The position numbers and the translations under genes are program-made. Under the pieces are notes generated by a model. It was not told where the DNA came from. It saw nothing but the letters and a program-made list of their open reading frames with translations, and did no database searches. Of a stretch of 64,000 nucleotides of DNA, positions 13,930 through 61,439 are shown piece after piece; position 1 is the first letter of the stretch, and each line of letters begins with the position of its first letter. The DNA is taken from positions 96,103,804 through 96,167,803 of the forward strand of contig OX457025.1 of NCBI GenBank assembly GCA_949752745.1. The letters run 5' to 3'. The DNA comes from Protula sp. h YS-2021. Lineage: Eukaryota; Annelida; Polychaeta; Sabellida; Serpulidae.

Positions 13930-13936
13930 TGTAAAA
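13930..13936. repeat. Target-site duplication of element A, left copy
   Basis: TGTAAAA directly precedes the terminal AGTAGGG. The same seven bases follow the terminal CCCTACT at the right end. Polintons usually make a 6-bp duplication, so the seventh matching base is either chance or a shifted boundary. Confidence 0.75.
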
Positions 13937-14240
13937 AGTAGGGTGAAAACGAGAGTTCTACGCCACTTGATGACGTCATACTGTCTGGAAGTGACGTCAT
14001 AGCGTCTGGACCGGAAGTGCTGTCTGGACCGAAAGTGCTGTCTGGACCGGAAGTGCTGTCTGGACCGGAAGTGACGTCATCATGTCTGGAAGTGACGTCA
14101 TAGCGTCTGGACCGGAAGTGCTGTCTGGACCGGAAGTGACGTCATGATAAGCGTAAGGATAGGCGCGGCCATCCATGACGTGATAATGACGTCATGATGA
14201 CGTCATACTGTCTGGAGCGAAAGTTGCTTGATAGGGTGCT
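13937..14240 (+). repeat. Left terminal inverted repeat of element A
   Basis: The terminal segment is dominated by an 18-bp unit, GTCTGGACCGGAAGTGCT, and by TGACGTCA palindromes. ACCGGAAGTG matches the usual ETS-factor consensus and TGACGTCA the CRE/ATF consensus, sometimes joined as ACCGGAAGTGACGTCA. The mirror image occupies about 19555-19859. The same unit forms the ends of element B. Confidence 0.85.
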
Positions 14241-14324
14241 CTGGCCGAGTCAATCATCATGAAGCCAATGAACTCCACCTGTCAATCAGTGTAACCATGG
14301 CAACAGACCCTAAAAAGCCATGAC

Positions 14325-14480
14325 CCCCCCCCCTAGGACATACTATGTACCGACCCTCCCCCCAGAGCATACTATGTACCCCCCCTAGGACATACTATGT
14401 ACCGACCCCCCCAAGACATACTATGTACCGACCCCCCCCCCCCCCTAGGAGACAGTCGGGACAGACCTCCCCCCCCCCAA
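14325..14480. repeat. C-tract repeat array, left arm of element A
   Basis: Runs of 6-13 C separate copies of TAGGACATACTATGTACCGA. The reverse complement with G runs lies at about 19307-19475. The same unit occurs near both ends of element B (45749-45850 and 61440-61675), making it a family hallmark. The G-rich strand has enough G runs to form quadruplexes. Confidence 0.85.
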
Positions 14481-14504
14481 GGATCGTGATATGGCTAACT
14501 TCAA

Positions 14505-15240
14505 GAATGTATAACTTTAAAACTACTTGGTTGATTTATATGAAAATTTCACTGTTTGATTCAGTTTTATGTAAAGTTTTGTCATAAAGTGGTCACAGGC
14601 TATTTTCGCAGCTGGCTGTATGCATTTTTGTAAAATGCCACCATTTTAACTTTGTAAAAAGTGAAAAAGTGTGATAACTTTCGTTATAGTTGACCGATTT
14701 GAATGAAAATTTCACTATTTGATTCAGTTTTATATCTAGTTTTATTATAAAGTAGTCATGGGCTATTTGCGCATGTGGCTGTATGCATAATTGTAACATG
14801 CCGCCATTTTAACTTTGTAAAAAGTGAAAAATTGAGATAACTTTCGCTATGCTTGGTCGATTTACATGAAAATTTCACTGTTTGATTCAGTTTTATATCT
14901 AGTTTTAACATTAAATGGTTATAGGCTATTTGCACCGATGGTTGTATGCATAATGTGACATGCCGCCATTTTAACTTTGTAAAAAGTGAAAAAATTGAGA
15001 TAACTTCCGTTATACTTGGTCGATTTACATGAAAATTTCACTATTTGATTCAGTTTTATATCTAGTTTTGTTATAATGTAGTCATGGGCTATTTACACAG
15101 CTGCCTGTATACATAATTTGACATTCGCCATTTCAACTTTGTAAAAAGTGGAAAAGTGTAATAACTTTCGTTATGGTTAACCGATTTGAATGAAAATTTC
15201 ACCATTGAATTCAGTTTGATGTCTTAGTTTACAGTAGTTT
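14505..15240. repeat. 163-bp tandem repeat, five copies, left arm of element A
   Basis: TGAAAATTTCACTGTTTGAT and its variants recur at 14541, 14704, 14867, 15030 and 15191, giving a period of 161-163 bp. Each unit also holds GGCTATTTGCGCA-like and GCCGCCATTTTAACTTTG segments. The mirror set lies at about 18540-19275. One partial unit is found in element B at about 46388-46508. Open frames inside are repeat by-products. Confidence 0.85.
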
Positions 15241-15339
15241 GGCATAGGTGAGTTGTTGGAATGGCGCGCGCCCCCCACCATTCAAACATGTGTTTGAATT
15301 ATTTTTACGTCAAACTATTGCTCAACAAGTTGTTTAGCA

Positions 15340-15575
15340 ATTGTACAACAATTGTTCAACGAGCTCTTGTTCAACATGTTGTTGAACATGTTCAACATGT
15401 TCAACAACATGTTCAACAAGTTGAACATGTTCAACATGTTCAACATGTTCAACAACATGCTCAACAAGTTGAACATGTTCAACATGTTGTTGCTCAAGTT
15501 GAACATGTTCAACCTATTCAACATGTTCAACAACATGCTGTTTAACAAGTTGTTCAACAAGTTGTAGTTGAAGAA
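15340..15575. repeat. TTGAACATGTTCAA array, distal, left arm of element A
   Basis: GTTGAAC, GTTCAAC and CATGTT units are interleaved. The decamer GAACATGTTC occurs at least four times. The sequence is locally self-complementary in many registers and could form many small hairpins. The decamer fits RRRCWWGYYY, the consensus half-site of the p53 family; any binding is untested. Met/Phe/Asn/Leu-only and Gln/His/Val-only open frames across it are artefacts. Confidence 0.8.
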
Positions 15576-15724
15576 AAGAAAAAATAAGACATATGTTGAA
15601 TAGGTTTATTAATACACTTAAATACACTTAAATACACTTAAATATATACAGCTTAAATCTATAACAATATTATAACATTTATTGATTTACAAAGTCTTTA
15701 TTATAAATGTTTAGTCAAATAAGT

Positions 15725-16461
15725 CTATTTTTCTTCATCTGCTTCACTCTGTTCACTGGCATCCATATCACTTTCTTCGTCACTGCTTTCATCTTCCTCC
15801 TCCTCATCTAGAAGCTCTTCAAAGAATGCATCGTTTCTTCTTATAGCCGCCTTTAGTGCCTTTGAATACTCGTTATGTTTTTCATCAACAAAGTAATTAA
15901 AGTCTTCTAAAATGGTTTTCAATGTTCGTTTTGTTGTAGACGTTGGGCATATTTGAATAGTCTCATAAACAGTTGTTTAAGTCGACGCTTATAAATGGGT
16001 CGAAAGTCATCACTTGCTATGTCACGCGCATCTTCAAGCCCTTGTTCTTCATATTCTGAAACCTTTTCTTGAAATTTGGTATCATATTCATCGTAGACTT
16101 CTTGAACCATATCATACCAAACAGAGTCTGTTTCTGACTCACTTTCAGAGTCTGTTTCTGACTCACTTTTAGAGCTGCCGTCATTATCACCCTCAACACA
16201 ATGTTCCATATGTTTGAACAAAGCTTCTTGACTGTTGTATAACGCACCACATTCTGTACAAGCATGTGCATTCTTTTCAGTCATGTTGACGCTTTGACTT
16301 TCCATAGAAGACTCATCTAAAATTTCAGTGATAGGTGGTTTCACAGGGTTTTCAATATCTATCTCCAATTCTTCTTCTTCTGAAGTGTGAGCATTCTTTA
16401 AGTGTCTTTTAAGACTTTGTGGCCAAATGTAAGATTTCAGACAAATGTTGCATTTATACAT
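15725..16461 (-). pseudogene. Acidic two-zinc-finger protein, left-arm copy with 1-bp deletion
   Basis: The frame opens at the ATG at 16461 and runs 180 codons. A single-base deletion near 15919-15925, relative to the right-arm copy, then creates a TGA, and the rest continues in another frame to 15725. The protein starts with a C2H2 finger (C4, C7, H20, H25), followed by a Glu-rich linker and a second C2HC finger (C-x2-C-x12-H-x3-C). Next come a Ser/Glu repeat, a helical basic segment (residues about 150-178) and, beyond the break, a very acidic tail. It suggests a nucleic-acid-binding regulatory protein, but I recognise no named family. A TATA-like TATATAAGG lies about 55 bp upstream (16514-16522). 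Confidence 0.8.
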
Positions 16462-16513
16462 CCTTTCGGTTCAACATACACTTTTCAAGTGATGAAAAAG
16501 CCTTTAAACATAG

Positions 16514-16522
16514 CCTTATATA
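16514..16522 (-). promoter_or_regulatory. TATA-like box for left zinc-finger gene
   Basis: TATATAAGG on the minus strand lies about 53 bases before the ATG at 16461. The mirror copy lies at 17219-17227. This spacing resembles other TATA-to-ATG distances in element B. Confidence 0.55.
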
Positions 16523-16615
16523 CAACTTGTTGAACAACATGTTGAACATGTTCAACATGTTGTTGAACATGTTGTTGAACATGTTGCTGAACATGTTGTT
16601 GAACATGTTGTCTAC
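16522..16615. repeat. TTGAACATGTTC array, promoter-proximal, left arm
   Basis: A shorter array of CATGTTGTTGAACATGTT units lies directly upstream of the TATA-like box of the left zinc-finger gene. The mirror copy is at about 17129-17218. Its position just upstream of a promoter suggests a regulatory role, which is inference. Confidence 0.7.
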
Positions 16616-16627
16616 GCCTAGGGGAGT

Positions 16628-16712
16628 TTAACGTCATAACGTCATTATGACGTCATCATTATGACACCATTATGACGTCATCATTATGACGTCATAATGA
16701 CGTCATTGGAAC
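16628..16712. promoter_or_regulatory. TGACGTCA cluster, left arm
   Basis: ATGACGTCAT palindromes are repeated about every 15-18 bp, some altered (ATGACACCAT). The mirror cluster lies at about 17035-17107. TGACGTCA is the full CRE/ATF consensus in animals. Whether it is bound here is unknown. Confidence 0.6.
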
Positions 16713-16739
16713 AGGCGCGTGCTTAATCAAAAACTGTTT

Positions 16740-16990
16740 CAGCAGAATTTATTGCTGTTTGATATGAATGAAATGCATGTCTCACTCTTCCTTTTATGCT
16801 TCTTAGATGTAATCAAAATATGGTGTGTAACTCGTCAAAAATGCCAAACTTGTTAAAATTGCTGACTCAGCAATTTTAGCAATTTTAACAATTTTGGCAT
16901 TTTTGACGAGTTACAGACCATATTTTGATTACATCTAAGTAGCATAAAAGGAAGAGTGAGACATGCATTTCATTCATATCAAACAGCAAT
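16740..16990. promoter_or_regulatory. Central bidirectional promoter-like block and palindrome axis of element A
   Basis: Two outward-facing copies of a block meet here. Each reads, outward from the axis, TGACTCAGCA, ATTTTGATTACATCTAAGTA, GCATAAAAGG and GAGTGAGACATG. The same block lies upstream of the polymerase gene of element B (60729-60960) and in its left arm (46518-46757). The axis is the perfect palindrome TGCTGACTCAGCA at 16860-16872, which equals the Maf-recognition element containing an AP-1 core. The right side holds a short tandem duplication of GCAATTTTA next to the axis. Confidence 0.7.
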
Positions 16991-17034
16991 AAATTCTGCT
17001 GAAATAGTTTTTGATTAAGCACGCGCCTGTTCCA

Positions 17035-17107
17035 ATGACGTCATTATGACGTCATAATGATGACGTCATAATGACGTCATAATGATGACGTCATAATGAC
17101 GTTATGA
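17035..17107. promoter_or_regulatory. TGACGTCA cluster, right arm
   Basis: This is the mirror image of 16628-16712, with about five ATGACGTCAT palindromes. Confidence 0.6.
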
Positions 17108-17128
17108 CGTTAAACTCCCCTAGGCGTA

Positions 17129-17218
17129 GACAACATGTTCAACAACATGTTCAACAACATGTTCAATAACATGTTCAACAACATGTTGAACATGTTCAAC
17201 ATGTTGTTCAACAAGTTG
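17129..17218. repeat. TTGAACATGTTC array, promoter-proximal, right arm
   Basis: This is the mirror of the array at 16522-16615. It directly precedes the TATATAAGG at 17219-17227 and the zinc-finger gene start at 17280. Confidence 0.7.
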
Positions 17219-17227
17219 TATATAAGG
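17219..17227 (+). promoter_or_regulatory. TATA-like box for right zinc-finger gene
   Basis: TATATAAGG lies 53 bases before the ATG at 17280. Confidence 0.55.
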
Positions 17228-17279
17228 CTATGTTTAAAGGCTTTTTCATCACTTGAAAAGTGTATGTTGAACCGAAAGG

Positions 17280-18017
17280 ATGTATAAATGCAACATTTGT
17301 CTGAAATCTTACAATTGGCCACAAAGTCTTAAAAGACACTTAAAGAATGCTCACACTTCAGAAGAAGAAGAATTGGAGATAGATATTGAAAACCCTGTGA
17401 AACCACCTATCACTGAAATTTTAGATGAGTCTTCTATGGAAATTTAAAGCGTCAACATGACTGAAAAGAATGCACATGCTTGTACAGAATGTGGTGCGTT
17501 ATACAACAGTCAAGAAGCTTTGTTCAAACATATGGAACATTGTGTTGAGGGTGATAATGACGGCAGCTCTGAAAGTGAGTCAGAAACAGACTCTGAAAGT
17601 GAGTCAGAAACAGACTCTGTTTGGTATGATATGGTTCAAGAAGTCTACGATGAATATGATACCAAATTTCAAGAAAAGGTTTCAGAGTATGAAGAACAAG
17701 GGCTTGAAGATGCGCGTGACATAGCAAGTGATGACTTTCGACCCATTTATAAGCGTCGACTTAAACAACTGTTTATGAGACTATTCAAATATGCCCAACG
17801 TCTACAACAAAACGAACATTATGAAACCATTTTAGAAGACTTTAATTACTTTGTTGATGAAAAACATTACGAGTATTCAAAGGCACTAAAGGCGGCTATA
17901 AGAAGAAACGATGCATTCTTTGAAGAGCTTCTAGATGAGGAGGAGGAAGATGAAAGCAGTGACGAAGAAAGTGATATGGATGCCAGTGAACAGAGTGAAG
18001 CAGATGAAGAAAAATAG
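17280..18017 (+). pseudogene. Acidic two-zinc-finger protein, right-arm copy with nonsense codon
   Basis: Starting at ATG 17280, the frame stays the same for 246 codons to the TAG at 18015-18017, except for a TAA at 17445-17447 after 55 codons. The left-arm copy has sense codons there, so a local change of a few bases created the stop. Downstream, a 186-residue frame from 17457 covers the second finger, the helical region and the acidic tail rich in Glu, Asp and Ser. The 1-bp deletion of the left copy is absent here. An AATAAA lies about 40 bases after the stop. The two copies thus carry different lesions. Confidence 0.8.
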
Positions 18018-18164
18018 ACTTATTTGACTAAACATTTATAATAAAGACTTTGTAAATCAATAAATGTTATAATATTGTTATAGATTTAAGCTGTATATAT
18101 TTAAGTGTATTTAAGTGTATTAATAAACCTATTCAACATATGTCTTATTTTTTCTTTTCTTCAA

Positions 18165-18440
18165 CTACAACTTGTTGAACAACTTGTTAAACAGCATGTT
18201 GTTGAACATGTTGAATAGGTTGAACATGTTCAACTTGAGCAACAACATGTTGAACATGTTCAACTTGTTGAGCATGTTGTTGAACATGTTGAACATGTTG
18301 AACATGTTCAACTTGTTGAACATGTTGTTGAACATGTTGAACATGTTGAACATGTTCAACTTGTTGAACATGTTGTTGAACATGTTGAACATGTTGAACA
18401 TGTTCAACAACATGTTGAACAAGAGCTCGTTGAACAATTG
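18165..18440. repeat. TTGAACATGTTCAA array, distal, right arm of element A
   Basis: This mirrors 15340-15575 but has at least one extra repeat block. That accounts for most of the length difference between the two arms. Confidence 0.8.
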
Positions 18441-18539
18441 TTGTACAATTGCTAAACAACTTGTTGAGCAATAGTTTGACGTAAAAATAATTCAAACACA
18501 TGTTTGAATGGTGGGGGGCGCGCGCCATTCCAACAACTC

Positions 18540-19275
18540 ACCTATGCCAAACTACTGTAAACTAAGACATCAAACTGAATTCAATGGTGAAATTTTCATT
18601 CAAATCGGTTAACCATAACGAAAGTTATTACACTTTTCCACTTTTTACAAAGTTGAAATGGCGAATGTCAAATTATGTATACAGGCAGCTGTGTAAATAG
18701 CCCATGACTACATTATAACAAAACTAGATATAAAACTGAATCAAATAGTGAAATTTTCATGTAAATCGACCAAGTATAACGGAAGTTATCTCAATTTTTT
18801 CACTTTTTACAAAGTTAAAATGGCGGCATGTCACATTATGCATACAACCATCGGTGCAAATAGCCTATAACCATTTAATGTTAAAACTAGATATAAAACT
18901 GAATCAAACAGTGAAATTTTCATGTAAATCGACCAAGCATAGCGAAAGTTATCTCAATTTTTCACTTTTTACAAAGTTAAAATGGCGGCATGTTACAATT
19001 ATGCATACAGCCACATGCGCAAATAGCCCATGACTACTTTATAATAAAACTAGATATAAAACTGAATCAAATAGTGAAATTTTCATTCAAATCGGTCAAC
19101 TATAACGAAAGTTATCACACTTTTTCACTTTTTACAAAGTTAAAATGGTGGCATTTTACAAAAATGCATACAGCCAGCTGCGAAAATAGCCTGTGACCAC
19201 TTTATGACAAAACTTTACATAAAACTGAATCAAACAGTGAAATTTTCATATAAATCAACCAAGTAGTTTTAAAGT
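18540..19275. repeat. 163-bp tandem repeat, right arm of element A
   Basis: This is the mirror image of 14505-15240, five copies, nearly identical base for base. Confidence 0.85.
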
Positions 19276-19306
19276 TATACATTCTTGAAGTTAGCCATAT
19301 CACGAT

Positions 19307-19475
19307 CCTGGGGGGGGGGGGGAGGTCTGTCCCGACTGTCTCCTAGGGGTAGGGGGGGGTCGGTACATAGTATGTCTTGGGGGGGGTCGGTACATAGTAT
19401 GTCCTAGTGGGGGGGGGGTACATAGTATGCTCTGGGGGGGGGGGTCGGTACATAGTATGTCCTAGGGGGGGGTCA
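19307..19475. repeat. G-tract repeat array, right arm of element A
   Basis: Runs of 7-14 G alternate with TCGGTACATAGTATGTCCTA. It mirrors 14325-14480. Confidence 0.85.
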
Positions 19476-19554
19476 TGGCTTTTTAGGGTCTGTTGCCATG
19501 GTTACACTGATTGACAGGTGGAGTGCATTGGCTTCATGATGATTGACTCGGCCA

Positions 19555-19859
19555 GAGCACCCTATCAAGCAACTTTCGCTCCAGACAGTATGACGTCATC
19601 ATGACGTCATTATCACGTCATGGATGGCCGCGCCTATCCTTACGCTTATCATGACGTCACTTCCGGTCCAGACAGCACTTCCGGTCCAGACGCTATGACG
19701 TCACTTCCAGACATGATGACGTCACTTCCGGTCCAGACAGCACTTCCGGTCCAGACAGCACTTTCGGTCCAGACAGCACTTCCGGTCCAGACGCTATGAC
19801 GTCACTTCCAGACAGTATGACGTCATCAAGTGGCGTAGAACTCTCGTTTTCACCCTACT
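19555..19859 (-). repeat. Right terminal inverted repeat of element A
   Basis: This is the reverse complement of 13937-14240. It has CACTTCCGGTCCAGAC units and TGACGTCA palindromes and ends GTTTTCACCCTACT. Confidence 0.85.
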
Positions 19860-19866
19860 TGTAAAA
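19860..19866. repeat. Target-site duplication of element A, right copy
   Basis: TGTAAAA follows the terminal CCCTACT and matches 13930-13936. Confidence 0.75.
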
Positions 19867-44879: not shown

Positions 44880-45240
44880 AGTAGGGTGAAAACGGGGCTT
44901 CTGGGTCACTTGATGACGTCATACTGTCTGGAAGTGACGTCATACTGTCTGGACCGGAAGTGCTGTCTAGACCGGAAGTGCTGTCTGGACCGGAAGTGCT
45001 GTCTAGACCGGAAGTGCTGTCTGGACCGGAAGTGACGTCATCATGTCTGGACCGGAAGTGCTGTCTAGACCGGAAGTGCTGTCTGGACCGGAAGTGCTGT
45101 CTAGACCGGAAGTGCTGTCTGGACCGGAAGTGACGTCATCATGTCTGGACCGGAAGTGACGTCATCATGTCTGGACCGGAAGTCACGATAAGCGTTAGGA
45201 TAGGCGCGACCATCTGTGACGTCATCATGACGTCATACTG
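44880..45240 (+). repeat. Left terminal inverted repeat of element B
   Basis: It consists of CTGGACCGGAAGTGCTGT and CTAGACCGGAAGTGCTGT units with at least seven TGACGTCA sites. ACCGGAAGTGACGTCA occurs at 45025-45040, 45123-45138 and 45149-45164. The match to the right end extends to the CGATAAGCGTTAGGATAGGC segment, with differing numbers of internal units. Confidence 0.85.
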
Positions 45241-45344
45241 AGATGATGCTGTCTGGAGCGAAAGTGGTTTGGCCGAGTCAATCAACATGAAGCCAATGAA
45301 CCCGACCTGTCAATCAGTGTAACCATGGCAACAGACCCTAAAAA

Positions 45345-45748
45345 GGTCGACAACCCCCCCCCCCTCGAAATTGTGATTTTTGCATATTTATCCGTTTCAG
45401 ACGATTCTGAACATTTTTCATTTTTTCGACCCCCCCCCCCCCTCGAAATTGTGATTTTTGCATATTTATCCGTTTCAGACGATTCTGAACATTTTTCATT
45501 TTTTCGACCCCCCCCCCCCCCCCCACCCCTCGAAATTGTGATTTTTGCATATTTATCCGTTTCAGACGATTCAGAACATTTTTCATTTTTTCGACCCCCC
45601 CCCCCCTCGAAATTGTGATTTTTGCATATTTATCCGTTTCAGACGATTCTGAACATTTTTCATTTTTTCGACCCCCCCCCCCTCGAAATTGTGATTTTTG
45701 CATATTTATCCGTTTCAGACGATTCTGAACATTTTTCATTTTTTCGAC
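45345..45748. repeat. C-tract repeat with about 66-bp core, five copies
   Basis: Five copies of a core that begins CTCGAAATTGTGATTTTTGC and ends ATTTTTCATTTTTTCGA are separated by runs of 9-18 C. The copies are nearly identical, so the amplification is recent. No counterpart exists at the right end or in element A. Confidence 0.9.
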
Positions 45749-45850
45749 CCCCCCCCAGGACATACTATGTACCGACCCCCCCCCAGGACATACTATGTAC
45801 CGACCCCCCCCCCCTAGAACATACTATGTACCGACCCCCCCCCCCTAGGC
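45749..45850. repeat. C-tract repeat AGGACATACTATGTACCGA, left arm of element B
   Basis: Three copies of ACATACTATGTACCGA are separated by C runs. The same unit occurs near the right end (61440-61675) and in both arms of element A. Confidence 0.85.
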
Positions 45851-45884
45851 GAGCAACATTCTGTCAAGTCAGCTTCAGTTCCAT

Positions 45885-46022
45885 CAGAGGGGTATATAAG
45901 GGATGAGCATACAGCAGTGACAGTCATTTCGGTGAGTGGAGCAAGGAAGTACAAGTTGTAGAACTACAATTGGATCACATCAGATCAAGGGATGGCATCC
46001 AGTGACAACTATTTCGGTAAGT
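45885..46022 (+). promoter_or_regulatory. TATA-like promoter with possible non-coding or tiny 5' exon
   Basis: GGTATATAAGGG lies at about 45890-45901. Downstream, ATTTCG is followed by GTGAGT (about 45932) and again by GTAAGT (46017), both good splice-donor matches. An ATG at 45992 opens only nine codons before the second donor. A good acceptor (TTACTTTTTCACAG) ends at 46843, just before the ATG at 46855 of the next gene. A spliced leader onto that gene is possible but unproven. Confidence 0.4.
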
Positions 46023-46029
46023 GTTTATT

Positions 46030-46385
46030 GAAACTTTATAAATAAAAAGTGAACTTTGTAAACAAACTTTAGTTATTTGCATAATTGAAACTTTGTAAAC
46101 AAACTGTGTAAACAAACTTTAAAAACAAACTTTATAAATAAACTTTGTAAACAAACTTTGTAAACAAACTTTGTAAACAAACTTTGTAAACAAACTTTGT
46201 AAATAAACTTTATAAACAAAATTTGTAAACAAACTTTGTAAACAAACTTTGTAAACAAACTTTGTAAACAAACTTTATAAATAAAATTTGTAAACAAACT
46301 TTATAAACAAACTTTATAAACAAAATTTGTAAACAAACTTTGTAAACAAACTTTGGTTATTTGCTTAATTGAAACTTTGTAAAAC
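46030..46385. repeat. AAACTTTGTAAACA 14-bp tandem repeat
   Basis: About 24 copies of AAACTTTGTAAACA and variants with TATAAA run in tandem. If the upstream donor is used, the array would be intronic. Confidence 0.85.
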
Positions 46386-46387
46386 AA

Positions 46388-46508
46388 TACCTTTCGTTAT
46401 ACTTGGTCGATTTATATGAAAATTTCACCATTTGATTCAGTTTTATGTAAAGTTTTGTTATAAAGTAGTCATAGGCTATTTGCGCAGCTGGCTGTATGCA
46501 TTTTTACC
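46388..46508. repeat. Partial copy of the 163-bp element A repeat
   Basis: The segment CCTTTCGTTATACTTGGTCG through GCAGCTGGCTGTATGCATTT matches one unit of the 163-bp repeat of element A in order and orientation. This links the two elements beyond their termini. Confidence 0.8.
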
Positions 46509-46517
46509 GCCATTACA

Positions 46518-46757
46518 GTGCTTCTTCGCGGATGAATACCATTTGGCAGACCATTTAACTTCACCGTCAGTTAACTTCACCGCTAGATGTCTCTGCTGTG
46601 TAGCAGTGCAGCTGTACAACTCGACAACTGTAAGTGAGACATTCATATACACAAGTAAAATTCTGCTGAGTCAGCAATTTTTTAACAAAGTTACACACCA
46701 TATTTTGATTACATGGAAGTAGTATAAAAGCATGAGTGAAACATGTCAACTAGTCAA
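46518..46757 (+). promoter_or_regulatory. Left copy of the polymerase promoter block (subterminal inverted repeat)
   Basis: This roughly 240-bp stretch is the inverted copy of 60729-60960, including GGATGAATACCATTTGGCAG, TAACTTCACCGCTAGATGTC, TGCTGAGTCAGCA (46664-46676), ATTTTGATTACATGGAAGTA and TATAAAAGC. It even retains ATGAGTGAAACATGTCAAC, the first codons of the polymerase, which here stop after nine residues. The block probably now drives the gene that follows. Confidence 0.8.
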
Positions 46758-46820
46758 CTAGTAATACATTCTGTCAACAAGTCAACAAGTGGATATTGTG
46801 TGACGAGAAAAGACTTGACA

Positions 46821-47264
46821 ATGTCAGCCTTACTTTTTCACAGATGTGTAGAGACCATGGATGACGTCTTCAAAGTGAATTATGCTGACTATGTGTTTTC
46901 AAAGCTTCCTGCTTTTGAATCGGATTGGATGCTGCAAGTGAAGAACTTACATCAGCATTGGGAAGCTGTTGGAAAGACCATTCCAAGAGATCGTTTCATC
47001 CGCTCGTTTCTACGTGAATGTGAAGATCTACATTTACCGTTAACTTATGACATTGATTTAGCATTTATCAACGTGAATACAATTTGGGCAGTTGAGCTCA
47101 TGTTAGATGTGGCTGCAAGAATCATTTTACATTATGATGATGATGTTCCATTGAAGACGAATGTATCAGAGCTTGTCCGATTCAACCATGGACGAGTTGA
47201 AGTGAATTCAAAACTTTGCAAGTTCTTTGAAAAGAAAGCTGACTCAGCAAACAGTTGGGTATAA
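46821..47264 (+). CDS. Accessory protein, unknown family
   Basis: The product is 147 residues from the ATG at 46821. An upstream in-frame ATG at 46743 would add 26 residues but lies only about 15 bases after the TATA-like TATAAAAG, probably before transcription starts. The ATG at 46855 has the better context (GACCATGG) and follows a plausible splice acceptor. The sequence is compact and helical, with DIDLAFINVNTIWAVELMLD and a basic C-terminus, and has no motif I recognise. It is the first gene inside the left arm, driven by a duplicate of the polymerase promoter. The next gene's TATA-like GTATAAAAGG overlaps its last codons. Confidence 0.6.
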   Translation: MSALLFHRCVETMDDVFKVNYADYVFSKLPAFESDWMLQVKNLHQHWEAVGKTIPRDRFIRSFLRECEDLHLPLTYDIDLAFINVNTIWAVELMLDVAARIILHYDDDVPLKTNVSELVRFNHGRVEVNSKLCKFFEKKADSANSWV

Positions 47265-47268
47265 AAGG
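47258..47268 (+). promoter_or_regulatory. TATA-like box for Cys-rich accessory gene
   Basis: GGTATAAAAGG lies about 80 bases upstream of the ATG at 47345 and overlaps the end of the preceding gene. A near-perfect Maf/AP-1 site (GCTGACTCAGCA) lies just upstream at about 47238-47249. Confidence 0.55.
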
Positions 47269-47344
47269 GAGTGAACTCAGCAGAGTGAAGTCATTTCTCA
47301 GCAGACAGTTGGAGGGAGTGCATCATCAGTACATTGTAGCAGCA

Positions 47345-47992
47345 ATGGAGAACAAGACAAGCAACGCAACGCAGCGCAGCAGCAGCTTTAAAATTAGTGC
47401 TAACTTAACCATTACTGTGGAGCATGGAGAATATGGGCCATTTCTACGCATCACACGTGGAGAGAGATGGTGTGCTTATTCACCATCTTTGTGGAAGATT
47501 GTATGCCAAAGCTTGAAAAATTTACGCGACATTGGCTTCAAACTGTACTTAACGCAAACGAAGTGGCTTGAAGTCATTTCATACTTGGATATGCGTTATG
47601 TGAGTTTTGTGCGCACGTCACGGTTTGAAGGGAAAGAATACACACATCACATCAACATGAATGATGGTGAATGGGAGACACTGCTTCAGGAGATGGACAA
47701 CATCAACTCAGCCCTATCACCATGTGAGGAATGTCATGACAAGAAAACGATCATCAAGCTGCAAAAGGATGGTCGGATGAAGTTGTCAAAGCTATCCAAG
47801 AAAAGGCTGGCTGAAGTTCAGTTGGAGAACATGAACGTACAAAATCAACTTGGACTTACCTGTGACTATTGCGGTGCTTGTGGATATATGGAGGATTATC
47901 AGTGCCACTGCCACAAGTATAATTGCAAGTTGTGTGAACCAAACAACTTCTGCGGCAAGTGTGGAGTACTTAAAGTCAGTGAAGCAAAGTAA
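47345..47992 (+). CDS. PC4-like double module with Cys-rich C-terminal domain
   Basis: The product is 215 residues from the ATG at 47345; the frame extends upstream only to a TTG. The first 120 residues look like two beta-rich units each ending in a helix with a Trp: ...LRITRGERWCAY..SLWKIVCQSL and ...MRYVSFVR...HHINMNDGEWETLL. The second matches the pattern of the PC4 single-strand DNA-binding fold (beta strands, then I.L...EW..L). The C-terminus has CEEC and then CDYCGACG, CHCH, CKLC and CGKC, probably a zinc-binding domain. It is related in architecture to the minus-strand genes at 55729-57132. A role in DNA binding or transcription is inferred. Confidence 0.6.
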   Translation: MENKTSNATQRSSSFKISANLTITVEHGEYGPFLRITRGERWCAYSPSLWKIVCQSLKNLRDIGFKLYLTQTKWLEVISYLDMRYVSFVRTSRFEGKEYTHHINMNDGEWETLLQEMDNINSALSPCEECHDKKTIIKLQKDGRMKLSKLSKKRLAEVQLENMNVQNQLGLTCDYCGACGYMEDYQCHCHKYNCKLCEPNNFCGKCGVLKVSEAK

Positions 47993-48016
47993 AAGCCCAC
48001 AAGACACTGAAACAAG

Positions 48017-48526
48017 ATGGACGCATGTTTTAAAAATGCTTATATTGACTTGATGATTGCTAAACTTGCTTGCTGTGGCACTCCAGACTATCAACTTTAT
48101 CATTTGGATGCTTTTTGGGATGTTGTACATCATAGTCTTGATGTGATTGAACTGCATTCAAGATTTCTTGGAGAATGTCATAAAACTGGAATAGAAGAAG
48201 ATCCTGACTTTGACTTTGATTCTGCACTTTATTCTGCTCGCACTGATGTGGAAGTATATTTCACCGTGGTTGATCATTTGAGAGATTGTTGTAAAGAAGA
48301 AGAGGAAACCGAGCAGCTTTATCAGGTAAGTTATAAAAACCTTTTCTAAACATGTTTATGACAACATAGTGAATTGTTTCTCAAAGACATAACCATGTTT
48401 TTCTTACTAGCAAATTTAGTTTTATGTGAGTGGTTTCAACGTAAACAAAGAAAGAATATGATAGAAGAGGCAGCAAATATATTAAAAGATATTTTATTAC
48501 AGGAAGAAACCGACATGTCAGAATAA
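48017..48526 (+). CDS. Small acidic accessory protein, probably spliced
   Basis: The ATG at 48017 opens a frame of 110 codons. A perfect donor, CAG|GTAAGT, follows codon 103 (exon end 48325), and a pyrimidine-rich acceptor, TTTTATTACAG, ends at 48502. Splicing out the 177-bp intron keeps the frame and gives a 110-residue product ending EETDMSE at 48526; unspliced, translation ends at 48349. The protein is rich in Asp/Glu and Cys (LACCG, RDCCKEEEE). No family is recognised. It lies between the Cys-rich gene and the NADAR gene. Confidence 0.5.
48395..48526 (+). CDS. Alternative 43-residue frame inside the putative intron, possible small membrane protein
   Basis: An ATG at 48395 opens 43 codons in the same frame as exon 2 of the preceding gene. 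It encodes a hydrophobic start (MFFLLANLVL) followed by a basic stretch (RKQRK) and an amphipathic helix. This would be a typical small membrane protein layout. It could equally be chance within an intron. Confidence 0.25.
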   Translation: MFFLLANLVLCEWFQRKQRKNMIEEAANILKDILLQEETDMSE

Positions 48527-48541
48527 AACAGCAAAGTCAAC

Positions 48542-48979
48542 ATGGAGAATCTTGTACTATTCAGCGGTCATAAGGACGTTCTTTCAAACATGTTTCCAAC
48601 ACGACTTGAAAAGTATGGACATGTGTTCAACTCAAGTGAAGCTTTGTATCAATATGAGAAAGCAGTGTTTCATCACCGTCCAGATATTGCTTCAGCCATT
48701 GTGTCATCCAGAAATGGATATGAAGCAAAACGTATTGCTAAAGTGATAAAGCCATGTCCTTTATGGCATACAGTGAAGAGAAGCAAAATGCAAGATGTTT
48801 TACAAGTCAAACTGGATCAGTGTGTATTGTTTCGCAACAAGTTGAAAGAATGTAAAGACAAAACTTTAGTTGAAGCAACGTATGATCATTGGTGGGGAGC
48901 TGGTGTGAAACATGTGTCATCTGAATATCCTGGTCAGAATATCATGGGAAAGTTGTTAGAACTGTTGTGTGAGGGTTAG
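48542..48979 (+). CDS. NADAR-domain protein (YbiA-like N-glycosidase family)
   Basis: The product is 145 residues from the ATG at 48542 (context AACATGG). It spans a whole NADAR domain: LSNMFP (14-19), FNSSEALYQYEKA (29-41, with E33, Q37 and K40), LVEATYDHWWGAG (109-121) and GQNIMGKLL (131-139). This matches the family pattern S.E...Q..KA, then W.WG.G, then G.N.LG..L. Known members cleave N-glycosidic bonds in riboflavin intermediates, and some remove ADP-ribose from guanine in DNA. Such activity could counter host ADP-ribosylation, but that is inference. It is a single-domain accessory gene just upstream of the late block. Confidence 0.85.
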   Translation: MENLVLFSGHKDVLSNMFPTRLEKYGHVFNSSEALYQYEKAVFHHRPDIASAIVSSRNGYEAKRIAKVIKPCPLWHTVKRSKMQDVLQVKLDQCVLFRNKLKECKDKTLVEATYDHWWGAGVKHVSSEYPGQNIMGKLLELLCEG

Positions 48980-49080
48980 AGACTTTTTCATTTGCTTGCC
49001 AACCGTCATGGTGTGCAGACGTGTGAACATGTAAATTTGAAGTATGTTTAACTTGTGTTGCATTGATTCAAGACTGCACA

Positions 49081-49413
49081 ATGGCGGACATGACACTGAG
49101 ACAATATATTGTGCAAAAAGCTTATTGTGAAGAAATGTTATCCGCTGTAAAAAAGTTTGCCTATTTAGTCTGTCCTGCTTGTCAACATGAAGAGTGTCAA
49201 GAACATACTTGTCATTTTGCATCTGTTTATACATATTGGAATGAAGCTAAATATTACATGCATTTAGATAAAGTGTTAGAGAATGCAAATCAACGTTGTG
49301 AGAAATATGGTGTAGATGCTATTACATTGGATGAACTCAGTCATTGGTTAGTGTTCATTGAAGACCAATGGTCTCCAGTGATTCATACCATTGTATCTAT
49401 ACTTGATTTGTAA
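49081..49413 (+). CDS. Small Cys-containing accessory protein, unknown family
   Basis: The product is 110 residues from the ATG at 49081; the upstream frame has only a TTG. Residues 31-44 hold C-x2-C-x4-C-x4-C (CPACQHEECQEHTC), which could bind zinc. The rest is helical with WNEAKYYMHLDK and a C-terminal hydrophobic helix. No family is recognised. It lies between the NADAR gene and the integrase promoter. Confidence 0.6.
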   Translation: MADMTLRQYIVQKAYCEEMLSAVKKFAYLVCPACQHEECQEHTCHFASVYTYWNEAKYYMHLDKVLENANQRCEKYGVDAITLDELSHWLVFIEDQWSPVIHTIVSILDL

Positions 49414-49463
49414 AAAACTTGTTAGTTAAGTTATAAATGCATGTTAGTTAAGTGATGTTGGTT

Positions 49464-49482
49464 GAGTTATAAAATAAAAGCT
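49464..49482 (+). promoter_or_regulatory. TATA-like box of the late gene block
   Basis: GAGTTATAAAATAAAAGC lies about 45 bases before the integrase ATG at 49519. Because downstream genes overlap, this could be the main promoter for the whole plus-strand block. Confidence 0.5.
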
Positions 49483-49518
49483 GTTCTGTTGAGAAGGTGG
49501 TTTTCATTCGGTGTGACC

Positions 49519-50628
49519 ATGTCGACGTGGAAAGACTACTTGACTGATATTTACTTCAAACCTGGACAGCCTGGAGCATTTGCTGGTCCTTACAAACTGT
49601 ATCACATCTTACGAAAACATAATCAACCAGTCACACATTCACAAGTGAAGAAATGGCTACAGGATCAAGATGCTTTTAGTTTACTCCAACCTGTCAAATA
49701 CAGGTTCAAAAGACAACGTGTGATTACACGTGGTATTGATGACATGTGGGATATTGATTTGGCTGATATGGGAAACATAGCTCCCTATAATGATGACATA
49801 CGCTTTTTACTCATTGTCATTGATGTGTTTTCCAAATATGTCTGGGTACAGCCAATAACTAATAAATCACATACCAGCGTCATACAAGCTTTCCAAAAGA
49901 TTTTTCATGACACACGACGAAGACCGCGAACTCTAAGGTCTGATAAAGGAACAGAATTTAAAAACAGATGGGTAAAAGCATTTTTGAAGAAAGAAGGCAT
50001 TCATGCTTATACCACAAAGAATGAAACCAAAGCCAACTTTGCTGAAAGAGTCATTCGTACTCTGAAGGGAATGATGTATCGGTATTTTCTACATAATCAA
50101 ACTTACCGTTACTTAGACATTCTTCCAGACTTGGTGTACAATTACAACCATAGACCTCATGGTTCTCTTCCTAATAAATATGCTCCAGCCGAGATTCGTA
50201 AAGACAACGAATCAAAAGTGTGGAAGTATATGTATGTTGACAAACTGAAATTGAAACCTAAGAAGAAGAAGAAGAAGTACAAATTTAACATTGGTGATCA
50301 TGTTCGCATTTCTCACATTAAATATGTGTTTCAACGGGATTATCACATCAAATGGACGCAAGAAGTCTTCATTGTCACACATCGTTGTAAGAAGCAAGGA
50401 ATACATTTATATCGTGTGAAAGACTTTTTAGACGAAGATATTGATGGTCATTTCTATGAAGAAGAACTGCAGAAAGTAACCAAAGATATTGAATCTATTT
50501 ATAGAATTGAAAAAGTCTTGAAAACACGTAAAAGACGAGGAGGAGGTGTGAAAGAATTATTTGTCAAGTGGTTAGGTTGGCCAAACAAGTTTAACAGTTG
50601 GGTGAAAGAAACAGACATTCAACAATGA
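49519..50628 (+). CDS. Polinton integrase (DDE, retrovirus-like) with C-terminal chromodomain
   Basis: The product is 369 residues from the ATG at 49519 (context GACCATGT); the longer frame begins with TTG inside the TATA-like box. Residues 1-65 form the usual N-terminal helical domain. The catalytic core has WDIDLADM (D80), LRSDKGTEF (D142) and KANFAERVIRTLK (E176), a D-D-(33)-E arrangement. An SH3-like basic region with KPKKKKKKYKFNIGDHVRI follows. Residues about 327-369 form a chromodomain (YRIEKVL...LFVKWLGWPNKFNSWV). It would insert the element with 6-bp target duplications. The chromodomain may guide insertion to chromatin marks. Its TGA overlaps the ATPase ATG. Confidence 0.95.
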   Translation: MSTWKDYLTDIYFKPGQPGAFAGPYKLYHILRKHNQPVTHSQVKKWLQDQDAFSLLQPVKYRFKRQRVITRGIDDMWDIDLADMGNIAPYNDDIRFLLIVIDVFSKYVWVQPITNKSHTSVIQAFQKIFHDTRRRPRTLRSDKGTEFKNRWVKAFLKKEGIHAYTTKNETKANFAERVIRTLKGMMYRYFLHNQTYRYLDILPDLVYNYNHRPHGSLPNKYAPAEIRKDNESKVWKYMYVDKLKLKPKKKKKKYKFNIGDHVRISHIKYVFQRDYHIKWTQEVFIVTHRCKKQGIHLYRVKDFLDEDIDGHFYEEELQKVTKDIESIYRIEKVLKTRKRRGGGVKELFVKWLGWPNKFNSWVKETDIQQ

Positions 50629-51284
50629 AGCATCCATTTACATGTTTGGTCTCTGGACCTACAGGCAGTGGCAAAACGTCTCTGGTGAAGGAAATTCTAG
50701 AACAAAAGTTGATTCAACCCTCTCCAAAAAGCATTTTATGGCTCTATGCAGCAGATCAGCCTTTGTACAAGGGAATGAAAGGCGTGGAATTTTATCAAGG
50801 CATTCCAGATGACATTGAAGAGCGTTTTAACCCGAAGAAACCAAACTTACTTATCATTGATGACTTAATGACGAAATGCCATAGTGATGAGCGTATGACA
50901 CGTCTCTTTAGTGTTGGCAGCAGTCATCAAAATCTAAGCATTATTTTTATTGTGCATAATTTATTCCATCATGGGAAAGAGATGCGAAATATTAGTTTGA
51001 ATACACATTATATCATTCTGTTTAAAAATCCGAGAGACAGTCAACAAATTAGTACATTGGCGCGGCAAATGTATCCTAGAAGATCTCAATTTCTCATAGA
51101 AGCCTATCAAGATGCTACTAGCAAACCTCATGGTTATTTATTCATTGATTTAAAACCAAAGACAAATGATCAACTACGTATTCGTACAGGCATTTTACTA
51201 AAAGATACACATTATGTATATATTGATAAAGCAGTGTATGAACAAGAACCAAGTCATTTAACCATTCGCAGTCAAGATGTCTAA
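50625..51284 (+). CDS. FtsK/HerA-A32 type genome-packaging ATPase
   Basis: The product is 219 residues from the ATG at 50625, which overlaps the integrase stop as ATGA. The Walker A motif is GPTGSGKT (11-18) and Walker B is NLLIIDDL (74-81, D79/D80). A conserved IIFIVHNLFHHG segment (106-117) follows. The length and order match Polinton, virophage and adintovirus packaging ATPases, which drive DNA into capsids. The ninth codon-pair before this start encodes only chromodomain tail in the other frame, so the ATGA start is convincing. Confidence 0.92.
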   Translation: MKHPFTCLVSGPTGSGKTSLVKEILEQKLIQPSPKSILWLYAADQPLYKGMKGVEFYQGIPDDIEERFNPKKPNLLIIDDLMTKCHSDERMTRLFSVGSSHQNLSIIFIVHNLFHHGKEMRNISLNTHYIILFKNPRDSQQISTLARQMYPRRSQFLIEAYQDATSKPHGYLFIDLKPKTNDQLRIRTGILLKDTHYVYIDKAVYEQEPSHLTIRSQDV

Positions 51285-51603
51285 ACGTATTCGAGCGAAC
51301 CAGCCGTTTCTTCATTTGCTTGCACGCAGTGGGCCTAAACGACGTAAATCCTTGCTACAGCAAGCTACAAAGGAGGAATTAACAAGCTTGTTTGAAATTT
51401 GTTTGAATATATTGCAAGGACATTTACCCTTAAGCTCAAAACGGTTTAAGGAATTTAAACGTGAACGTCATACGCTACGTACTCTAGCAGATAAGAAGAT
51501 ATCCCTTCGACGAAAAAAGAAGTTGATTAATCAGAAAGGAGGATTCATTGGAGTTATTGCTAGATTGGCATTGCCCTTGTTAGCCAAACTGCTGCTAAAA
51601 TGA
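51277..51603 (+). CDS. Small basic virion-type protein with hydrophobic C-terminus
   Basis: The product is 108 residues. Its ATG overlaps the end of the ATPase gene by 8 bases. It has a helical N-terminus (FLHLLARSGPKRRKSLL), a LNILQGHLPL segment, a highly basic middle (KKISLRRKKKLINQKGG) and a hydrophobic tail (FIGVIARLALPLLAKLLL). Proteins with this pattern are common next to the ATPase in animal Polintons and adintoviruses and have been compared with adenovirus core or membrane-lytic peptides. QKGG just before the hydrophobic tail may be a protease site. Confidence 0.7.
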   Translation: MSKRIRANQPFLHLLARSGPKRRKSLLQQATKEELTSLFEICLNILQGHLPLSSKRFKEFKRERHTLRTLADKKISLRRKKKLINQKGGFIGVIARLALPLLAKLLLK

Positions 51604-52178
51604 AACATACGATGAAAATGGTCCTCATTCCTGAATATGAATACAAACTGTTATTAGAAAAGAAGGGTAAAGATGGTGAAATCAAAACGAAAGTGAATAA
51701 ACTTTTACGTGGGAAACGAACACGTGAAAAGGCTATAGAAATATCTCAACTTCTTGGTCGTCATTTACGAACAAGTCAGTCTAGGCAGCAAAAGCCCTCA
51801 TCATCATCACCACCTGAAAAGCCAGAAAAGTTATTTTTAAGTCATTTTCAACCTATCTATCATGGAAAAGTAACACAACTTTTAGCAGAACTGAAGAAAT
51901 ATGGTACGACATGGTCAGAGAAGAATGAACTTGTGTTGAAAACGGGCGATATTATAGCAAATTCCAACATGGTTGATTTGATGAAAGAAGCATTGGTGGC
52001 GACAAGAAGAAAAGAACGAGTCATACCACCGCATGGCTGGCATCCGTTTATCCAGGAAATTGTTGATGCTAATATTCCAAAAACAATGTTTAGTAAAAAG
52101 ACCACTCGTGACGACATTACAACAGAAATGAAACAACGTCAACAAAGACGGTTTCCTGAAGGATGGGAAAATTTTTAA
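51600..52178 (+). CDS. Conserved Polinton-associated protein of unknown function
   Basis: The product is 192 residues. Its ATG overlaps the previous stop as ATGA. It has a basic N-terminal half with a Ser/Pro-rich linker (PSSSSPPEKPEK). The C-terminal half has LLAELKKYGTTWSEKNELVL, IIANSNMVDLMKEAL and PHGWHPFIQEIVDANIPK. The W.E..ELV...I..SN..DL..EAL and GW..F pattern is one I associate with an uncharacterised protein family found widely in animal Polinton-like elements. A structural or assembly role is plausible from its place in the late block. Confidence 0.6.
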   Translation: MKHTMKMVLIPEYEYKLLLEKKGKDGEIKTKVNKLLRGKRTREKAIEISQLLGRHLRTSQSRQQKPSSSSPPEKPEKLFLSHFQPIYHGKVTQLLAELKKYGTTWSEKNELVLKTGDIIANSNMVDLMKEALVATRRKERVIPPHGWHPFIQEIVDANIPKTMFSKKTTRDDITTEMKQRQQRRFPEGWENF

Positions 52179-52384
52179 CATGGCTGAAAGAGCTATGTTG
52201 TTGTTGTGAGGAAGATAAACCAACTATTCCTGTGAAGATCAGATGTACAATTGCTTGTTGTGAAGGAGAAGTCATAGATCATCTAGATCATCATCATGAT
52301 GTAAAAGACCATTTGCATACTTGGTCGAATGGCGCGCGCTATCGTGAAGTATATAGACAACGTCAACGCATCTATACCATTTAG
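52163..52384 (+). CDS. Small protein with N-myristoylation and Cys cluster, putative membrane anchor
   Basis: The product is 73 residues. Its start overlaps the preceding gene by 16 bases. It begins MGKFLTWLKELCCCCEED: Gly2 with Thr6 fits the N-myristoylation pattern, and four consecutive Cys are candidates for palmitoylation. A His-rich middle (DHLDHHHDVKDHLH) may bind metal. The C-terminus is basic. No family is recognised. The anchor suggests a role at a host or virion membrane; this is inference. Confidence 0.55.
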   Translation: MGKFLTWLKELCCCCEEDKPTIPVKIRCTIACCEGEVIDHLDHHHDVKDHLHTWSNGARYREVYRQRQRIYTI

Positions 52385-52395
52385 TTCCCACCATC

Positions 52396-53154
52396 ATGGA
52401 GTCGACAAGCTTTTACATTACTTTGCCTAGCAATGCGAGTATGACCTATTATCCCAACAACAAGGCTTCGAATTATCAAATTCGTATGCCTCGAACCATC
52501 TATCTGAATGGAAAATATGAAGTGGCTTTAGCTGAAATTCAATATCCACATACATGGACAACGATGAGACAGGGCATGGACTATTCTATTCAGTATCGAC
52601 AAGAACTATTCGATGATCCTATTCTTAGCACTCTCGATATTCCTTATGGGTACTATAGAACCATACAAGAACTATGTGAGGCAGTCAATGAAGAAGCGAC
52701 TAATGCTCTGAAACTTACAGAAGCTATTCGGCTAAAGTATGATAAAATTAGACGACGTGTGTTTCTATTTCTCGATTATGGCTATGAAGTGTCTTTTTCC
52801 ACTGGATTGGCTGAGATTTTAGGATTTATCCCAGATCAATGGTATACTGAAACATGTACAGCTGACCATAAAGCGGATGTGAAACAGGGATTTTATACAC
52901 TGTACGTGTATTGTAGCATTTGTGAACCACAAGTTGTTGGTGATTATTATGTGCCGTTACTACGTTCTGTTGGCATACAAGGCCATGATGGTGACATTAT
53001 CATGAAAACGTACGGCGAACCGCATTATGTTCCTGTAAACACGTCCAAATTTGACGTGATAGAAATGAATATTAAGGACGACACAGGCCATAATGTTCCA
53101 TTTCAAACTGGAAAGGTGATCTGTAAACTTCATTTTCGACCAAAAGCAATATGA
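52396..53154 (+). CDS. Minor capsid protein, penton-like (single jelly roll)
   Basis: The product is 252 residues and starts 11 bases after the previous stop, with ATCATGG context. It opens SFYITLPSNASMTYYPNN..SNYQIRMPRTIYLNGKYEVALAEIQYP, the hallmark start of Polinton penton-like proteins, in which a beta strand leads into the jelly roll. A mid-region YGYYRTIQELCEAVN and a C-terminal VICKLHFRPKA strand complete the fold. It would form the pentameric capsid vertices. The stop overlaps the next start as ATGA. Confidence 0.85.
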   Translation: MESTSFYITLPSNASMTYYPNNKASNYQIRMPRTIYLNGKYEVALAEIQYPHTWTTMRQGMDYSIQYRQELFDDPILSTLDIPYGYYRTIQELCEAVNEEATNALKLTEAIRLKYDKIRRRVFLFLDYGYEVSFSTGLAEILGFIPDQWYTETCTADHKADVKQGFYTLYVYCSICEPQVVGDYYVPLLRSVGIQGHDGDIIMKTYGEPHYVPVNTSKFDVIEMNIKDDTGHNVPFQTGKVICKLHFRPKAI

Positions 53155-53492
53155 AAGCTTATACACACGATCCGTCTGCATATCGCAACCATTTTCTTCG
53201 TCAAGTGGGCGGGGAATTACCAGGATTCAAAGGAGCGCGAATCCAATATGGCGATGGTATTGGTTCCATACTGGGATCATTGGCTCGCAAAGCTATTCCA
53301 CTACTTAAGGCTGGGGCTAAGATCGTTGCGCCACATCTTAAGAAGGCTGCAAAGAATGTCGCGAAAGATGTGACGGGTCGAGTAGCAGAACGTGTGTTTG
53401 GTGAACAAAAGCGTATGCAACCGACGAAACGTGCCAGAAGACGAAAAACAGCCAGACGGATAACATCAAAATATCGCAAAGATATTTTTTAA
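53151..53492 (+). CDS. Basic virion-type protein with amphipathic helix (adenovirus core/lytic-peptide-like)
   Basis: The product is 113 residues, with its ATG overlapping the penton stop as ATGA. After FLRQVGGELPGFKGARIQ comes GDGIGSILGSLARKAIPLLK, an amphipathic helix. It is followed by a Lys/Ala-rich helix and a very basic tail (KRARRRKTARRI). The layout resembles small adenovirus core and capsid-interior proteins that are cut by the viral protease; QVGG is a candidate cut site. It would condense DNA or help breach membranes, which is inference from layout. Confidence 0.65.
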   Translation: MKAYTHDPSAYRNHFLRQVGGELPGFKGARIQYGDGIGSILGSLARKAIPLLKAGAKIVAPHLKKAAKNVAKDVTGRVAERVFGEQKRMQPTKRARRRKTARRITSKYRKDIF

Positions 53493-53503
53493 AGAAAAAA
53501 AAA

Positions 53504-55311: not shown

Positions 55312-55445
55312 TGTTGTTGTTGTTATATTAGTTAAGTTGTTGTTGTTATATTAGTTAAGTTGTTGTTGTTGTTGTTATATTAGTTAAGTTGTTGTTGTTG
55401 TTGTTATATTAGTTAAGTTGTTGTTGTTGTTAAATAAAACAAATC
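55312..55445 (+). repeat. TTGTTGTTATATTAGTTAAG repeats, 3' region of late block
   Basis: Five copies of a 24-30 bp unit follow the protease stop directly and end at AAATAAAAC, a likely polyadenylation signal. They are probably the 3' untranslated region of the late transcripts. Confidence 0.7.
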
Positions 55446-55489
55446 AAGTTTCAAACAACTGTCTTGTTTATTGTGTTGTACATACGTTT

Positions 55490-56347: not shown

Positions 56348-56402
56348 CTCGTTCAACAGTCAGATGAACTATGAGCTGTCTCCTTGTCTGCAAAGACGTT
56401 TT

Positions 56403-56774: not shown

Positions 56775-56787
56775 GATTGTTACCTTG

Positions 56788-57132: not shown

Positions 57133-57183
57133 GTTGACGCTTCAGTGTTCACACCACAACTAACTCATAAGTTGAAGTGTCTC

Positions 57184-61349: not shown

Positions 61350-61439
61350 GATGTGTCTGACAATGTCTCTAAGCCTTGAGACACCACACTTATATAGGAT
61401 TTTATCATGCTGATTCGGCAAAAGTTTTTGTTGCTCCCC

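Follow-up and report, generated by a model that had tools for sequence, protein, structure and literature searches.

How does a transposable element come to carry the same terminus twice, as the two arms of one palindrome? The question is raised by a 64-kb stretch of contig OX457025.1 of the serpulid annelid Protula sp. h YS-2021 (hereafter the window), in which positions 13937-19859 form a single palindrome of 5923 bp with the tips of a Polinton (Maverick) element. We read it as a palindromic derivative of a Polinton, non-autonomous and with a left terminus at both ends, made by fold-back copying and then inserted in trans, and give this reading a probability of about 0.57. The analysis covers assembled sequence of one copy of the palindrome, with one Polinton of the same window as the yardstick.

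A palindrome with Polinton tips and a flanking direct repeat

The original prediction for this locus described an element that is almost entirely an inverted repeat, with arms near 2.9 kb, Polinton termini and an integration duplication of its own. All three features are borne out. Arms of 2927 and 2982 nt flank a 14-nt centre, and an inverted-repeat search recovers them from tip to centre as pairs that are 98-100% complementary (Table 1). With the centre left out, the arms differ by 19 substitutions in 2914 positions; a global alignment that includes it has 24 mismatches in 2922 positions, 5 of the 24 within the non-palindromic centre, and nine gaps totalling 81 bases. Seven of these gaps lie in C-tracts or short tandem repeats, the largest (57 bp) in the TTGAACA repeat, and two lie in the zinc-finger gene that each arm carries.

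Exact copies of the 15-mer AGTAGGGTGAAAACG stand at 13937 (+), 19845 (-), 44880 (+) and 62103 (-), so that all four tips of the palindrome and of the Polinton at 44880-62117 are identical in 15 of 15 bases. These are its only matches in the window at two mismatches or fewer, against a chance expectation of 0.10. The sequence TGTAAAA is directly repeated on both flanks, either as a 7-bp duplication or as a 6-bp duplication with one additional terminal base at a tip. The flanks are otherwise unlike and not mirrored: their ungapped identity over 600 bases is 25%, and their local alignment scores 22, compared with a mean of 20 and a maximum of 35 for shuffled sequences.

Left-end Polinton sequence in both arms

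The outermost 202 bases are 88.6% identical to the left end of the Polinton, and 189 bases are 90.5% identical to its right end. Inside these shared tips the arms match the left end and not the right, as emerged from the comparison with a full-length Polinton that the original prediction had proposed. Of the subterminal DNA at the left end, the stretch 45241-45345 agrees with the two arms at 96/100 and 95/100 positions. A unit of the type that forms the 163-bp tandem repeats of the arms is found by blastn at the left Polinton end only, where both arms match it at 99/106 positions, and the order of the tip, the C-tract array and the 163-bp unit in the arms is the order at that end. Three right-end stretches (61695-61800, 61080-61440 and 60840-61070) score no higher against either arm than the best of 20 shuffles. 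Judged against this one Polinton, both arms therefore appear to derive from one type of terminus, the left.

The axis lies on a motif shared with the Polinton

The 13-mer TGCTGA[CG]TCAGCA is present only at 16860, 46664 and 60808, with 0.01 occurrences expected in 64 kb. These sites are the axis of the palindrome, a position ahead of the first long frame of the left Polinton end, and a position ahead of the frame that we take to encode PolB. The axis sequence TGCTGACTCAGCA, which we presume to be Maf/AP-1-like, thus has three occurrences in the window, one on the axis and two in promoter-like regions of the Polinton. After the motif come CCATATTTTGATTACAT and a TATA-like stretch in all four copies of the region, two of them inside the palindrome, and these regions are presumably promoters. 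The copies in the arms are nearest to that of the PolB-type frame (78/85 and 72/80, versus 57/66 for the left-end copy).

A 9-bp tandem copy of AGCAATTTT shifts the arm-defined axis (16870.5) by 4.5 bp from the centre of the motif (16866). About the motif centre, 58 of 60 bases on each side are symmetrical when one 9-bp unit is skipped, and 35 of 60 when it is kept. Folded as single-stranded DNA, the centre has a predicted free energy of -12 kcal/mol, equalled by none of 200 shuffles; the predicted folds of its Polinton counterparts are weaker, at -5.6 kcal/mol (6 of 200 shuffles) and -5.0 kcal/mol (15 of 200). The axis thus seems to sit at a short inverted repeat that could prime synthesis, as snap-back copying would predict.

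Two zinc-finger copies and uneven divergence of the arms

Each arm carries one C2H2 zinc-finger gene that points away from the axis, and the two copies are broken at different places (Table 1). The left piece, with two Pfam finger stretches, matches PF13912 at 7.7e-8; the right piece matches it at 4.6e-5, under its cut-off. These copies, together with array frames for which nothing exceeds the Pfam cut-off, make up the frames of at least 100 amino acids in the palindrome. The original prediction held that the element lacks any replication or capsid gene, and Pfam found no gene for replication, integration, packaging or capsid in any of these five stop-to-stop frames; they are 5 of the 27 overlapping frames of at least 60 amino acids, the other 22 being left unscanned. 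As no PolB, integrase, ATPase, protease or capsid gene is present in the scanned frames, the element is a derivative and not an autonomous Polinton.

A profile built from both zinc-finger copies, scored against the 7993 candidates sharing most words with it, finds two metagenome proteins at E < 0.01, P0121 (3.5e-7) and P0122 (3.2e-3). Both resemble the palindrome's gene in having a finger, an acidic linker and a common C-terminal part, and over 146 and 109 positions their identity with the right copy is 23% and 22%. By eye they have a single finger, compared with the two Pfam stretches of the left copy, and they lie on contigs of at most 1.1 and 1.5 kb. The predicted fold of P0121, mainly helices (mean predicted local distance difference test score 63.9, predicted template modelling score 0.34), is too weak for a fold search. 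The right piece as sole protein query has no match at E 0.001 among 415 candidates, NCBIfam yields nothing for either copy, and PHROGs at E < 0.01 yields only phrog_6283 (function unknown, 8.3e-7), for the left copy. Scans of viral contigs for the protein or its relatives confirmed no relative; the tip 15-mer is present in three such contigs, which have no inverted repeats of at least 30 nt in the stretches available, and we take these matches as chance.

Differences between the arms are unevenly spread. The outer arms differ at 1 of 1507 positions and the inner arms at 14 of 1252 (Fisher p 2.4e-4, or 9e-4 with adjacent changes counted as one event), p-values that are optimistic because the border, 15600, was picked after the positions had been seen; the C-tract (4/155) is omitted from this comparison. 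When the arms are polarised against the promoter-like regions of the Polinton, one derived substitution falls on the left arm (16801) and one on the right (16916), so divergence of the arms seems to postdate the formation of the palindrome. They appear formerly to have been more alike, with the gene copies decaying separately. The uneven spread speaks against uniform mutation after integration as the whole cause of the arm differences; conversion between the arms, drift that preceded insertion and additional mutation close to the hairpin would each account for it. Beyond the original prediction, then, the new elements are the two left ends, the motif on the axis, the two zinc-finger copies and the uneven divergence of the arms.

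A proposed origin by fold-back copying

In the scheme that we favour, a parental Polinton would have lost its core, its left end becoming joined to a zinc-finger gene under an inward-reading promoter of the right-end type; a less likely parent would be one whose left end already bore the zinc-finger gene, facing outward. During protein-primed replication from the left end, the free 3′ end of the strand, near the promoter, would fold on TAAAATTGCTGA/TCAGCAATTTTA and prime synthesis back as far as the strand's own 5′ tip, leaving a hairpin that has a single terminus. The following round would open this hairpin into a linear palindrome with the left terminus, and therefore an origin, at each end. 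The integrase of a full Polinton would insert the palindrome and duplicate the target, after which the zinc-finger copies would decay independently. We infer all four steps of this mechanism. Movement would take place in trans, and the neighbouring Polinton, with its integrase and PolB-type frame, is a candidate helper.

Snap-back copying, which the original prediction had put forward, has become likelier through two findings: both ends are left ends, and the axis coincides with an inverted repeat that recurs in the promoter-like regions of the Polinton. Several observations weigh against our reading. Snap-back is not proven, because the same sequence would result if two molecules had fused at the motif; we prefer fold-back copying because one event gives both the two left ends and the inverted-repeat axis. 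In the outermost ~190 bp the left and right Polinton ends are indistinguishable as a source, a sequence weakly related to the left subterminal stretch is present at the right end (score 45, versus 210 for identity), and the right-end stretch 60840-61070 is a weaker marker because it is partly common to the left end. Two left-end stretches, 45844-46100 and 46505-46640, have no match in either arm, so that the neighbour's left end is not reproduced in full. Other local inverted repeats are frequent in the arms (a loose test gives 68 axis positions in the left one), and the motif copies in the Polinton are perfect over 6-bp arms only. In the neighbour these motif copies lead into inward-reading genes, whereas in the palindrome they face outward from the middle; our reading therefore has to assume either a parent of another kind or a deletion that came first. 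A tblastn search with the zinc-finger gene gave nothing below E 0.28 in the window outside the palindrome, so no counterpart was found in the neighbour and hence no parent. The flanking repeat has 7 bp (TGTAAAA), compared with 6 bp (TGGAGG) at the Polinton, the window holds one copy of the palindrome, and the uneven mutation of the arms is not what a single recent event predicts.

A wider form of this history, which we put forward tentatively and regard as doubtful, is that the palindrome represents a lineage and not a single accident: a Polinton satellite that, before insertion, replicated for some time as a linear palindrome whose two ends each held an origin. One central bidirectional promoter would have driven its two zinc-finger regulators, and panhandle copying would have preserved the likeness of the outer arms during the drift of the inner ones. 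If so, the element would be a fossil, now integrated, of the protein-primed replication of Polintons, and transcription across its axis would yield a hairpin RNA of 2.9 kb that could supply small-RNA silencing of Polintons.

Other explanations

Two simple derivations were rejected. The palindrome is not a plain mirror of the neighbour's left end, as the neighbour was not found to have the gene and arrays of the arms, which also lack the two left-end stretches and have the promoter-like region reversed. Nor is a plain internal deletion of a left-right Polinton its sole cause, as neither arm has right-end markers inside the tips. The two left ends would also follow from a fusion, in which two core-deleted Polinton copies recombined at the motif, or a polymerase switched strand there, to leave two left halves head to head. 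The motif is its own reverse complement in all but the middle base, so that copies could pair in either orientation; two near-identical partners must, however, have met at one motif, something that the sequence neither shows nor excludes, and we consider such a fusion unlikely. We judge it less probable still that terminal repeats spread inward in the manner of Foldback or Galileo elements, one end being copied onto the other until the two met. Galileo copies that consist of long terminal repeats alone, or of these with recruited internal DNA, are described in passages of PMC3573991, and the closer likeness of the outer arms (1/1507, versus 14/1252 for the inner, with the optimistic p-values given above) looks like two layers of age. 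Against this, the copying must have halted exactly at the motif, and a remnant of the right end was not detected in the arms.

It is highly improbable that the parent was a type of Polinton with terminal repeats of ~2.9 kb that held the zinc-finger gene, and that its core was deleted between two promoter motifs. Such a deletion is conceivable because the neighbour has the motif at both ends, within inverted stretches of ~230 bp that are 86% alike; the neighbour's ends differ, however, over much of the DNA from tip to motif, and the arms, once past the tips, match the left one. An assembly or library artefact, arising from a fold-back read or an unresolved mirror, has hardly any probability left. 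Palindromes are difficult to assemble, and the material here is assembled sequence; but the arms stop exactly at the tips, between unlike flanks with TGTAAAA on both sides, and they differ by 19 substitutions and by indels, with one derived change on each arm. The unlike flanks, the direct repeats and the arm differences argue against an assembly mirror, which we reject.

Relation to known elements

Palindromic defective genomes are known from protein-primed replicons. The SYREC derivative of adenovirus type 12 and the palindromic deletion derivatives of yeast killer plasmids have two copies of one terminus around an axis; they are extrachromosomal and are replicated by the proteins of another copy. 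We know of none that is integrated with a target duplication. To our knowledge, protein-primed replication of Polintons has been deduced from their genes and not observed. Since one terminus present twice and an inverted repeat on the axis are the expected trace of fold-back, the replication model is testable in assemblies, where the signature to look for would be a Polinton that has either its left or its right end twice, around an axis at a short inverted repeat. An empty CTCATGTAAAAGCTTTG site in another haplotype, if present, would date the insertion.

Adeno-associated virus (AAV) replicates by a rolling hairpin and not by protein priming. Its snapback genomes, called a major category of defective particle in part of PMC8235507, are like the palindrome in being self-complementary with one end only, and their dimers are described there as having promoter and coding regions head to head. 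They are packaged molecules, whereas the palindrome is a chromosomal insertion. The FB and Galileo elements of Drosophila offer another likeness, with copies that are nearly all long inverted repeat and with tandem repeats in the arms, according to passages of PMC3573991, which also put the terminal repeats of Galileo at up to ~1.26 kb. These elements have a P-superfamily transposase, in contrast to the Polinton-type ends here. Miniature inverted-repeat transposable elements are usually below 600 bp, as stated in the same passages, and the palindrome has 5923 bp.

With Polintons the palindrome shares the tip sequence, terminal repeats, subterminal arrays, the promoter-like region and a flanking direct repeat. 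Its tips start with AGTAGG, near the (AGT)2 end motif given for vertebrate Mavericks in a passage of PMC8097293. It differs in having two left ends and no PolB, integrase, ATPase or protease gene in the scanned frames, and in its size and duplication (5.9 kb and 7 bp, versus ~17 kb and 6 bp). In a full-text literature search on Polintons and Mavericks, with subscription journals mostly outside its coverage, no title or abstract opening among the papers listed describes a palindromic Polinton.

Feature map and the neighbouring Polinton

Table 1. Features of the palindrome and of the neighbouring Polinton
Feature	Position	Strand	Evidence or remark
TGTAAAA target-site duplication, left copy	13930..13936	.	
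Left-arm Polinton-type terminal repeat: TGACGTCA / CCGGAAGTG repeats, then ~100 bp subterminal DNA	13937..14323	+	Subterminal DNA matches left Polinton end
Left-arm C-tract / GGACATACTATGTACC array	14327..14438	+	Occurs at both Polinton ends too
Left-arm 163-bp tandem repeats, 4.3 copies	14524..15230	+	One related unit in left Polinton end, 46387-46505
Left-arm TTGTTGAACA array	15368..15564	+	
C2H2 zinc-finger gene, left copy	15919..16470	-	Outward, to left tip; frame lost near 15.92 kb
Left promoter-like copy: CCATATTTTGATTACAT and TATA-like GCATAAAAG	16730..16859	-	Outward; putative promoter
TGCTGACTCAGCA on palindrome axis	16860..16872	.	
14-nt non-palindromic centre	16864..16877	.	9-bp AGCAATTTT tandem copy shifts arm-defined axis
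Right promoter-like copy	16878..17010	+	Outward; putative promoter
C2H2 zinc-finger gene, right copy	17271..18017	+	Outward; in-frame stop 17445-17447, open frame 17448-18017
Right-arm TTGTTGAACA array	18200..18476	-	Includes 57-bp stretch absent from left arm
Right-arm 163-bp tandem repeats	18559..19263	-	
Right-arm G-tract array	19350..19474	-	
Right-arm Polinton-type terminal repeat	19475..19859	-	
TGTAAAA duplication, right copy	19860..19866	.	
Inverted arm pairs	13936-14331/19465-19860, 14469-15488/18301-19320, 15380-15634/18098-18352		Inverted-repeat search
Inverted arm pairs, further inward	15621-15918/17824-18121, 15921-16863/16878-17820		Inverted-repeat search
Polinton, outside the palindrome, 25 kb away	44880..62117	+	Candidate helper and yardstick; 6-bp duplication TGGAGG at 44874-44879 and 62118-62123
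Inverted motif-bearing stretches of Polinton	46525-46750 versus 60727-60956		~230 bp, 86% alike
Polinton integrase	49456-50628		PF00665 8.5e-11, chromodomain 6.9e-8
Polinton packaging ATPase	50595-51284		Pox_A32 6.9e-7, Adeno_IVa2 9.2e-7
Polinton adenain-like protease	54835-55311		PF00770 4.7e-4, just under its cut-off
Polinton PolB-type frame, 1188 amino acids	57188-60754	-	

The 1188-residue frame of the Polinton is presumably PolB, a label that we base on motifs such as DTDSL. Pfam finds in it only an endonuclease VII stretch (residues 467-507; PF02945 8.7e-4, under its cut-off), which also matches phrog_423 of PHROGs at 5.1e-5, and a comparison of the frame with solved structures gave no match. 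By eye, its N-terminus is C2H2-like. A capsid gene was not identified, the frames 52357-53154 and 53405-54877 being without a match in Pfam and PHROGs. The integrase has 1244 relatives; among the best 120 of these the best match is 82%, and the named animal matches are to Pinctada (55%) and Saccostrea (49%, twice). A scan of viral contigs confirmed no relative of the integrase. The Polinton also carries a NADAR-domain gene at 48527-48979 (PF08719, 1.9e-18), and its left-end stretch 46505-46640 is partly common to both of its ends. It is enclosed by a GGAGG-rich minisatellite (44798-44879 and 62118-62288). Elsewhere in the window are a 29-bp minisatellite at 1494-2815 (45.7 copies) and a 139-bp tandem array at 4123-5539 (10.2 copies, 98% matches), to which an array with 137-138-bp units at 62566-63156 appears by eye to be related.

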